A DNA stretch of 64,000 bases, taken from contig NZ_BMMS01000013.1 in NCBI RefSeq assembly GCF_014646055.1, forward strand, positions 142,658 to 206,657. The letters are read 5' to 3'. The DNA is from Wenjunlia tyrosinilytica (GTDB lineage Bacteria; Actinomycetota; Actinomycetes; Streptomycetales; Streptomycetaceae). Positions 4,855 to 61,910 of this stretch are shown here, piece by piece. Under the pieces are notes generated by a model, which had not been told where the DNA came from, did no database searches, and saw only the letters and a list, made by a program, of their open reading frames with translations. Position numbers and translations under genes: made by a program. Position 1 is the first letter of the stretch. Every line of letters starts with the position of its first letter.

Positions 4855-5066
4855 GGCACCGAGGCTGAGGCATTGAGGCACTGAGCGACGGGGCCCCAGG
4901 GCCACTCCATAGGGGGACACAGGCCACAGCCACAGGGCCGCACGGCCGCACGGCCGCACGGCCACACGGCCACACGGCCAGAGGGACACACGGCCAAGGG
5001 ACAGAGGGACACAGGGCCACACGGCCAAGGGACACACGGCCAAGGGACACACGGCCACACGGCCAA
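4848..5066. repeat. Dense short tandem repeats
   Basis: Two arrays follow the SH3 gene. At about 4848-4885, units around CTGAGGCA overlap its stop codon. At about 4920-5066, many 9-10 bp units of the type GGCCACACGG and GGCCGCACGG alternate with GGGACAC and CCAAGGGACA. The minus-strand reading frames here are artefacts of the repeat. The remaining bases up to 5216 hold only the sigma-factor leader. Confidence 0.8.
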
Positions 5067-26254: not shown

Positions 26255-26423
26255 GCACCGCAGGGCGCGCCGACGCGCGGAAATGTGGTCACCGCTGTGA
26301 TGACGGTCGCACCGCCGGGCGGTGGTGGGGTATGCGCGCTGCCGCGCGAAGGATCAGTGGCGCCAGCGGCAGCGGTGAGTGTGCGGGCGGCCTGGCCCGC
26401 GCTGCCGGGCGGCGGTCTGGGGC

Positions 26424-26456
26424 GCGGCCCCGAGCCGGGGTACGGGGGCCGCTTTT
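26424..26456 (+). terminator. Terminator downstream of the glutaredoxin gene
   Basis: Arms GCGGCCCC and GGGGCCGC enclose about 16 bases and are followed directly by TTTT. It lies 170 bp past the stop; the sequence between is GC-rich without a supported gene. Confidence 0.6.
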
Positions 26457-26616
26457 GAACTTGGTAGTGAGCTTGGGGCTGAGCGCCCCCGCGTGCACCT
26501 CCCCGCACGAATGTGACATTGCACCACCTTTTCCGAAAACGGCACCCACATACCCCCGCCGGGGGCGGATGCGGCGAGGAGACGAAAACGCCCGCACCCG
26601 CAGCCCCACCGCCCAC

Positions 26617-27750
26617 CGCGCGAAGCGCGCGGACCAGACCGCCGCTCGGCGGCGTAACCCAGCCCGCTCGGGGCTGTCGCCGCTGCTGTTGGCGCTTTTT
26701 GTCTTTCGCGCGGTAGCGCGCAGGTGGAACCGGTGCTCGGCGGTGTGACCGTCAGTTCGGTGGTAGTCGGCCGCTGCGCCTCCGGTCACCGCGCGAAGCG
26801 CGCAGATCAGACCGGCGCCCGGCGGTGTAACCCAGCCCGCTCGGGGGCTCCCTCCGCTGCTGTTGGCGCCTTTGTCTTTCGCGCGGTAGCGCGCAGGCGG
26901 CCCGGTACCCGGCGGCGTGACCGTCAGTTCAGCGGTGGTCTGCCGTAGCGAAGCCGCTGGCCCCAGGCCGTCGCGCGGAGCGCGCGGACCAGACCGGCGC
27001 CCGGCGGCGTAACCCAGCCCGCTCGGGGCTGTCGCCGCTGCTGTTGGCGCACGCCGAACCGGTGCCCGGCGGTGTGACCGTTGGTTCGGTGGCAGTCGGC
27101 CGCTGCGCCTCCGGTCACCGCGCGGAGCGCGCAGACCAGACCGGCGCCCGGCGGCGTAACCCAGCCCGCTCGGGGGCTCCCTCCGCTGCTGTTGGCGCCT
27201 TTGTCTTTCGCGCGGTAGCGCGCACGCGGCCCGGTGCCCGGCGGCGTGACCGTCAGTTCAGCGGTGGTCTGCCGTAGCGAAGCCGCTGGCCCCGGGCCGT
27301 CGCGCGGAGCGCGCGGACCAGACCGGCGCCCGGCGGTGTAACTCAGCCCGCTCGGGGCTGTCGCCGCTGCTGTTGGCGCACGCCGAACCGGTGCCCGGCG
27401 GTGTGACCGTTGGTTCGGTGGCAGTCGGCCGCTGCGCCTCCGGTCACTGCGCGGAGCGCGCGGACCAGACTGCCGCTCGGCGGTGTAACCCAGCCCGCTC
27501 GGGGCTGTCGCCGCTGCTGTTGGCGCACGCCGAACCGGTGCCCGGCGGTGTGACCGTTGGTTCGGTGGCAGTCGGCCGCTGCGCCTCCGGTCACTGCGCG
27601 GAGCGCGCAGATCAGACCGCCGCTCGGCGGCGTAACCCAGCCCGCTCGGGGACTCTCACCGCTGCCGTTGGCGCCCTTGTTCTTCGCGCGGCAGCGCGCA
27701 GACCGCACCGGCGCGCGGCAGCGTGACCGTCAGTTCAGTGGTGGTCTACC
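26617..27750. repeat. Higher-order tandem repeat array, seven core copies
   Basis: A core, GTAACCCAGCCCGCTCGGGG, occurs at about 26654, 26826, 27009, 27156, 27338, 27484 and 27632, preceded each time by GCGCG-GAG/GAA-GCGCGC and AGACCG. Spacing alternates between about 147 and 182 bp because two linker types follow. The short one carries CACGCCGAACCGGTG; the long one carries TTTGTCTTTCGCGCGGTAGC. The 330-bp pair 26826-27156 is repeated at 27009-27338. Several hairpins recur per unit, for example AGCCC-gctc-GGGGCT. Long open frames on both strands are products of the repeat and carry no known domain, so no protein is called. The flanks (26457-26616 and 27751-27795) hold no gene. Confidence 0.9.
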
Positions 27751-27795
27751 CCTGGGCCGCCGCGCGGAGCGTGGCTTTGAGCGGAAGCGCGGCCC

Positions 27796-28743
27796 CTACC
27801 CCTGCGGTGGGGTAGGGGGAGGGGGAGGTTCCGCGATGCCCGCAGTGGCGGTGCGGCGGAAGCCGACTCTTTCGTAGACGCGGGCCACCGCCTCGCTGTC
27901 GGCGGACAAGAAGATCAACGACGCCCCGCCCGCCAGGGCGTCCTGCGCCAGAGCCGAGGTCACGGCCGCTCCCAAACCGCCCCGCCGGTAGGCGGGGAGG
28001 GTGCCCACGCCCACTATCTCCGTCGTGTCGCCCACCGGCTGGTGGCTGCCCGCCGCGATCGGCCCCTGGGGCCCGTACGCCACGTACATCACCGTTCGAC
28101 CGGCCCGCAGCCGCCCGCGAAGGGCCTCGATCGCCTCGGGCTGCTCTCCCACCGCCGCCAGGTCCCGCTCCGCGGTCCCCGCCGACCCCCGCTCCGTCCC
28201 CGATGTGCTGAACGCCACGACCGGCACACTGTGGATCACCGCCAGGTCCTCGGCGTCGGCCTCCACCCTCCGGATCTCCACCGGCCCCTCCGGCGCCGAC
28301 ACCGGGGTGAACGCCTCGGGGTCCAGCGCCAGCAGGGGGTGCATATGGACATGCAGCCCCGCCTCCCGCGCGGCCCACCGCATCGACGGCGTCGTCTCGT
28401 CGACCCACTCGAACGCCTCGGGTATGGCCAGTTCCCGCTGGCGCTCCCGCACCGCCCGCACGTCCTGACCCGTCACGGTCGTCGGCCCGCCCTGCTCCCC
28501 GGCCAGCCGCGGACGGGCGTAGTACGGCCACCCCGCCCCGTTGCGCACGAACAGGACCAGTGGGCCCATGTGTTCGGTGCGCGCGGCGGAGCGCGGCACC
28601 GCGTCGTAGTACCGCTCGAGGCGGCGCAGAATCTCGGTCCGGGCAGGCGGGGCTTCGGTCACGACGGTCATCCAAGCGGCTGCCCGCGCCGCGCGGCGAG
28701 CGATTTCCGATTCAGGCACGTTTCCCCACTCTTTGTTCGACAT
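27796..28743 (-). CDS. GNAT-family N-acetyltransferase
   Basis: A 315-residue protein. The C-terminal 130 residues hold the acetyl-CoA-binding core: EIVGVGTLPAYRRGGLGAAV (motif A, R/Q-x-x-G-x-G/A variant) and VARVYERVGFRR. The N-terminal half is a divergent acetyltransferase-like region. Substrate unknown. The start is uncertain: ATG at 28743 (MSNKEWGN) and ATG at 28785 are both possible and neither has a strong ribosome site. Divergent from the exonuclease gene, and next to the repeat array. Confidence 0.82.
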   Translation of the reverse strand: MSNKEWGNVPESEIARRAARAAAWMTVVTEAPPARTEILRRLERYYDAVPRSAARTEHMGPLVLFVRNGAGWPYYARPRLAGEQGGPTTVTGQDVRAVRERQRELAIPEAFEWVDETTPSMRWAAREAGLHVHMHPLLALDPEAFTPVSAPEGPVEIRRVEADAEDLAVIHSVPVVAFSTSGTERGSAGTAERDLAAVGEQPEAIEALRGRLRAGRTVMYVAYGPQGPIAAGSHQPVGDTTEIVGVGTLPAYRRGGLGAAVTSALAQDALAGGASLIFLSADSEAVARVYERVGFRRTATAGIAEPPPPPTPPQG

Positions 28744-56852: not shown

Positions 56853-56949
56853 TCCGGGAAGTGCTCGGGAAGTGCTCGGGAAGTGCTCGGGAAGTGCTCG
56901 GGAAGCCGTCCGGGAAGTGCTCGGGAAGCGCCCGGTAACCGCTCGGGAA
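56853..56949. repeat. 11-bp minisatellite, about eight units
   Basis: CGGGAAGTGCT recurs about eight times in tandem with some variants (CGGGAAGCCGTC, CGGTAACCGCT). It lies between the secreted-protein promoter and the csp terminator. The rest of 56658-56852 is promoter DNA without a supported gene. Confidence 0.85.
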
Positions 56950-61783: not shown

Positions 61784-61910
61784 CGGCCGGACGTTCTGGG
61801 CCGGACGTTCTGGGGCGGACGTTCTGGGGCGGACGTATGGGGCCGACCGTCCGGAGCCGACCCTCCGGGGCCGGACGTTCTGGGCCGGGACGTCCGGGGC
61901 CGGCCGTCCC
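61784..61910. repeat. GGCCGGACGTTCTGG minisatellite between accE and the alpha subunit
   Basis: Units of 13-16 bp such as GGCCGGACGTTCTG and GGGGCGGACGTTCTG recur about eight times, with degenerate copies (GGGGCCGACCGTCCG). It fills the gap between two genes that probably share a transcript. Confidence 0.85.

Follow-up and report, generated by a model that had tools for sequence, protein, structure and literature searches.

The seven-unit repeat array in the 64,000-nucleotide stretch of Wenjunlia tyrosinilytica DNA analysed here (the window) forms one arm of a larger element, which is non-coding, spans approximately 26290–27770, and has further copies in the same genome (G000). With moderate confidence, we interpret this element as lineage-specific mobile DNA, foldback-like and non-autonomous, with inverted arms built of tandem repeats. 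This interpretation refines one option of the initial annotation, which had considered a recombination element or a binding array.

The Array in the Window

The 20-mer GTAACCCAGCCCGCTCGGGG occurs seven times, at 26654, 26827, 27009, 27156, 27338 (with one mismatch), 27485, and 27632, with spacings between successive copies of 173, 182, 147, 182, 147, and 147 bp. TRF assigns the array a 329-bp period (score 1453, 95% matches) and a 147-bp period (score 667). The seven-fold recurrence of a core with two linkers, as initially annotated, is therefore far beyond chance, while the proposed super-unit of about 330 bp stands as a period but repeats only 2.4 times. Two kinds of unit alternate with these spacings: long units of ~182 bp, which retain a hairpin termed H1, and short units (147 bp), which do not. 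The richness in inverted repeats is likewise borne out, with 28 perfect short hairpins in the array compared to 10.1 in dinucleotide shuffles (none of 200 shuffles reaches the observed number), and single units of the other copies also exceed their shuffles. GTAACCCAGCCCGCTCGGGG itself is specific to the window copy; the boxes found across the family are other sequences.

A protein-coding array was rejected, as unit lengths of 147–216 bp keep no common frame and, in line with the open frames without domains that had been noted, no array frame scores above the Pfam cut-offs. Nothing else in the window accounts for the array, as originally stated. The window contains three other tandem repeats: 8.7 copies of a 14-bp repeat, GGCCGGACGTTCGG (61785–61907); 8.5 copies of an 11-bp repeat, CGGGAAGTGCT (56855–56949); and an 8/16-bp array, CACGGCCA, with about 18 copies (4925–5065).

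Anatomy of the Element

The limits first given for the array, 26617–27750, cover the right arm but miss a left arm and a core at 26290–26561. The complete element consists of one or more inverted units on the left, a palindromic core of ~125–130 bp, and units in direct orientation on the right, with both arrays facing outward. The left arm in the window is a single degenerate inverted unit (26290–26425, minus strand), identified by an inverted-repeat search and by a match to the H1 pattern (C13:168991–169014, plus strand). It was recognised because its first 62 nt (26290–26351) are 81% complementary to the distal unit of the right arm (27682–27743). This unit comprises Box3 (~26293–26308), Box2 (~26312–26322), and hairpin H1 (~26333–26352), and its outer end stops past Box3.

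The right arm (26600–27770, plus strand) contains the seven units head to tail. Each unit carries one copy of hairpin H2, CGCGC-GAA/GGA-GCGCG with a GNA loop (26617–27610, plus strand; starts at 26617, 26790, 26974, 27121, 27303, 27450, and 27597). H1, CGCGC-GGTA/GGCA-GCGCG with a GNNA loop, is preceded by a T-rich tract and is confined to the long units (26698–27697, plus strand; starts at 26698, 26871, 27200, and 27676). The outer terminus of the arm is Box3, GACCGTCAGTTCAGTG (27725–27740, plus strand), near the end of homology with the other elements. Across the family, a unit read from the core outward contains a T-rich TTTTGTC, H1 (CGCGC-GNNA-GCGCG), Box2 (CCGCCCGGCGG), Box3 (ACCGTCAGNYCRGCG), a variable stretch, and H2 (CGCGC-GRA-GCGCG), and unit lengths of 147, 158, 160, 182, 214, and 216 bp occur among the copies. 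Because homology between elements ends shortly past Box3 on both sides, at most outer ends, the Box3-Box2-H1 series appears to behave as a terminal inverted repeat.

The core (26433–26561, ~128 bp, assigned to neither strand) aligns in five elements with 70–91% identity. It is an imperfect ~38-bp inverted repeat, GGGGTAYGGGG..CCGYTTTTGAA..TGGTRGTGA ... TTGCACCACC..TTYCRAAAACG..CCCAYATACCCC, with an asymmetric centre that contains CGCCCCCGCG. Half-sites of the form CACCACC-NN-TTYC-AAAACG are largely retained in every copy, and the covariance check proposed initially found no covariation of core base pairs (score 0.089 compared to 0.082 in shuffles, from five sequences only). Together, retained half-sites and absent covariation suggest that the core is a putative protein-binding dyad rather than an RNA, and an RNA function of the core was rejected.

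Copies Elsewhere in the Genome

Five complete elements were identified in G000 (in the window, on contig C9, two on contig C19, here C19a and C19b, and one shared by C67 and C1), as well as two decayed ones (C4 and C7). The copies on C9, C19, C67, and C7 come from a DNA search of G000, while those on C1 and C4 were added by the hairpin pattern; as this is a single draft genome, the copy number is uncertain. The C67 copy runs off the end of its contig (L013), and the start of C1 (L169) has a matching arm followed by the expected next gene. These two contigs are adjacent by synteny, and their ends evidently form one element split by the assembly. Among the decayed copies, the one on C7 lacks a right arm and the one on C4 lacks a recognisable core; a 13-bp tandem repeat, GGAGCCGTCGAGC, occurs at the expected core position of the latter (L170:1920–2100).

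The H1 pattern, with up to three mismatches allowed, has 32 matches in the genome, compared to 0 for the reversed control. All of them lie in complete elements, in the C1 continuation, or in the decayed C4 element, except for one match with three mismatches on C21. In complete elements the pattern is in plus orientation to the left of the core and in minus orientation to the right.

C19a and C19b, ~16 kb apart, have cores that are 91% identical, and their arms resemble each other by side (0.74 left to left and 0.73 right to right, compared to 0.55–0.61 otherwise), so the composite element was duplicated as a whole. Near C19b there is also a long degenerate array of 17–20-bp tandem repeats of the CCCGCCCCCAGCCCGGG type (L016:8449–8794). 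Units are more alike within an arm (identity 0.79) than between elements (0.59), which indicates local amplification or homogenisation of units.

Distribution and Insertion Sites

The core pattern has no match above control level in 297 further genomes of the family, and the core covariance model matches G000 alone among 200 genomes (0/199 others). A search of this genome and its relatives, as initially recommended, thus yields further copies in G000 and none in the other family genomes searched. Few candidates per relative were scored in the initial DNA search, on which neither the pattern search nor the covariance search depends. Against 84,980 species genomes, from which records of the source organism may have been excluded, the exact core pattern matches one unrelated Bacteroidetes contig. 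Short matches to the array in relatives appear to be due to chance or to other repeats: L002 contains no array, and L004 contains a different one. The latter (L004:1476–1668) is a 25/50-bp palindromic array of the GGGGTCCGGGGCGCAGCCCCG type with GTA, GCA, or GCG loops, situated in a spacer. A phage or plasmid origin was rejected, as viral contigs do not contain the core pattern and whole-element queries have no convincing match in phages or plasmids; the sole plasmid match (54 bp, Nocardia, E 0.01) was taken as chance.

At all five sites, relatives keep the neighbouring genes, separated by short spacers without the element. In G001, a member of the same genus that contains no repeat at these junctions, three spacers measure 181, 346, and 126 bp, compared to 1342, 1338, and 1671 bp in G000, respectively, and the fifth junction, from an aldo/keto reductase gene to a small gene, is short as well. 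At the junction in the window, G001 has ~170 bp before the next conserved gene, compared to 2.5 kb here. These element-free junctions indicate that the elements are lineage-specific insertions (or gains), apparently expanded and homogenised locally afterwards. The corresponding spacers in G001 and other genomes are too diverged to define an insertion point or to recognise a target-site duplication.

In the window, the element is flanked on the left by a glutaredoxin-like gene (PF05768; 25985–26254, plus strand) that is kept in relatives. On the right it adjoins a convergent GNAT acetyltransferase gene (27796–28650, minus strand), absent at the locus in 8/8 relatives compared, which was possibly acquired together with the element or later. 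The array does separate the bldN group from rex-hem, as had been pointed out, but this is incidental, as the four other copies sit between unrelated gene pairs. Flanking genes are convergent at five of the seven sites (window, C67/C1, C19b, C4, and C7), tandem at C19a and C9, and divergent at none; our own calculation gives P of about 0.013 for at least five convergent sites out of seven, assuming a convergent share of 25% among junctions.

Hairpin Loops

The loops of H1 are GGCA, GGTA, or GACA and those of H2 are GAA or GGA, belonging to the GNNA and GNA classes, respectively; such loops form exceptionally stable DNA mini-hairpins (PMC4686876). In every unit, strong GNA hairpins are confined to the outward strand, which has its 3' end directed away from the core. 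Of the seven array-arm changes within the 14 hairpin sites, five affect the two loop positions that are free to vary (intact elements, one spurious match excluded; p ~0.001, or ~0.005 with C19a and C19b treated as a single element); before this exclusion the count was 6/9, with p 0.0005. In the left arms of C9 and C19b, the H2 stem alternates between CGCGC/GCGCG and GCCGC/GCGGC without loss of pairing. In most C67 units and in the left arm of C19a, H2 pairing does not extend past three pairs. A general enrichment of GNA loops in streptomycetes was rejected, as they make up 15–20% of hairpins with 3-nt loops in relatives compared to 14% expected.

Interpretation of the Element

We infer that the element is mobile and that an enzyme mobilises it. 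A transposase or replication protein acting in trans would recognise the arm boxes and the core half-sites, perhaps through single-strand hairpins, and would move the element as a whole. After insertion, units would multiply through slippage or unequal crossing-over, and the element would persist in spacers at gene ends because insertion there does little harm. Consistent with this model are the plan shared by five copies, the element-free relatives, the whole-element duplication at C19a and C19b, the local amplification of units, the ends at Box3, the prevalence of convergent and lack of divergent sites, the absence of covariation and of an Rfam match, and the GNA and GNNA loops, which are kept while N varies. 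Against it, five copies are few for a mobile family, the core identities given above make the insertions look old, and activity is not visible because one genome alone carries the element. A profile search for PF01797 (Y1_Tnp), positive in five control genomes, has no match in G000.

An extension of this model, which we regard as doubtful, is that the element represents a bacterial foldback class acting through single-stranded DNA. The outward arrays of ultra-stable GNA/GNNA mini-hairpins, which resemble telomeres in loop and polarity, would then provide ends for a replication or transposition protein, and the dyad would be an origin or enzyme site. If the foldback-like interpretation is correct, foldback architecture would occur in bacteria, beyond the eukaryotic transposons, and a streptomycete would have internal arrays that share a type of DNA loop with streptomycete telomeres. 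Such an element would also offer a tractable system for studying how bacterial repeats acquire tandem arms, how palindromic arrays evade deletion, and what mobilises them.

Among the alternatives, a BIME-like element useful to the host is the most probable, though unlikely. Placed between convergent genes, it would block transcription from both directions or serve as a topological insulator, with each unit acting as a weak outward terminator with hairpins and the core dyad binding a nucleoid protein. The preponderance of convergent sites fits this possibility, as does the core half-site, kept without covariation as for a protein-binding dyad. Terminator-like matches also occur nearly all on the outward strand and exceed those in shuffles at three copies (4 compared to 0.5 in the window, 4 to 1.4 at C9, and 5 to 1.3 at C19b). 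However, the terminator stems are short, there is no enrichment at C19a or C67, and the convergent bias is also expected from selection against insertions into promoters. A general chromosome function is disfavoured by the small number of complete copies (five in 8.5 Mb) and by their absence from all relatives searched. A side effect of the element on transcription is possible.

It is improbable that the elements are relics of telomeres or of a mini-linear replicon, now integrated in the chromosome, in which an origin-like core would lie between two outward hairpin arrays of telomeric type. The loop classes and their position in every unit on the strand with the outward 3' end recall telomeres (PMC8743542, PMC4513846). 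Yet the elements are internal, their units lie 147–216 bp apart rather than tightly packed, the plasmid collection returned nothing beyond the 54-bp chance match, and a shared loop class alone says little given the near-background frequency of GNA-type loops in relatives.

A partly wrong assembly, in which the element is real but the number or order of its near-identical units is not, seems equally improbable. The draft is divided into 172 contigs, with a contig break inside one element (C67/C1) and one N inside the C19a copy, but the copies differ internally, each has unique flanks, and the five independent loci are consistent with one another. The array is thus not an assembly artefact as such, an outcome that the initial annotation had named as a refutation.

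That the element gives rise to a long hairpin transcript or to an array of structured non-coding RNAs, the latter as first suggested, is very improbable: although the core as RNA folds better than shuffles in 4/5 copies (z −4.1 to −7.7; in the window, −1.2 on the plus and −3.3 on the minus strand), its covariation equals that of shuffles, whole units show no gain in folding over their shuffles (z +0.64 as RNA, −0.32 as DNA), Rfam gives no match beyond a sub-threshold miRNA model, the arms are symmetric about the core, making the two strands equivalent, and the H1 loops are not of the RNA GNRA type.

Comparison with Known Systems

REP and BIME sequences have a 20–40-nt palindrome tagged at its base by GTAG or CGTC, usually number more than 100 per genome, and are associated with RAYT (PMC2817692, PMC3733652, PMC3116915). 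Like REP, BIME, and REPIN sequences, the elements described here are extragenic, palindromic, species-specific, and tandemly amplified at gene ends (PMC2817692, PMC3733652, PMC3116915). They differ in their low copy number (32 H1 matches), the head-to-tail order within an arm, the lack of a tagged REP, and the lack of a Y1 transposase in the genome. Neither tag occurs at the stem base of H1 or H2; Box3 does contain a CGTC, but not where a stem begins. On the basis of tag, copy number, and the absence of Y1_Tnp from G000, REP/BIME membership and mobilisation by RAYT were rejected.

In streptomycete telomeres, the hairpins of all six classes have mostly GAA, GGA, or GTA loops (PMC8743542), and in the typical telomere sheared G-A pairs close Palindromes II and III of the 3' overhang, to which Tap binds (PMC4513846). 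The elements share with telomeres the arrays of palindromes, the GNA loops, and the strand polarity (PMC8743542, PMC4513846). They are distinct in their wide unit spacing, in having no sequence similarity that we could find, and in their internal location, with genes conserved in relatives on both flanks rather than a replicon end.

The closest architecture is that of the eukaryotic foldback transposons FB, Galileo, and Tetris, which have inverted arms with variable numbers of tandem repeats and a non-coding middle (PMC4079207). The elements resemble them in having long inverted tandem-repeat arms (with units of ~220 bp in Tetris) around a non-coding middle domain, in being non-autonomous, and in having few complete copies (PMC4079207). 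The likeness is architectural only, as the present element is bacterial, measures 1–1.6 kb, and contains DNA mini-hairpins in its arms, and no target-site duplication was recognised; we found no bacterial foldback element in the open-licence papers searched.

As in MITEs, the elements are non-coding, are dispersed in several copies, and have inverted Box3-Box2-H1 series at both ends of most copies. Like the BrickBuilt MITE of Porphyromonas gingivalis (PMC4596501), they are bacterial, species-restricted, and intergenic, with internal tandem repeats and inverted ends. BrickBuilt has 19 copies, with 23-bp repeats between a leader and a tail and small inverted-repeat ends (PMC4596501), whereas the present elements have units of ~150–215 bp, arranged as two opposing arrays with a dyad core between them. 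BrickBuilt is the closest bacterial counterpart that we found.
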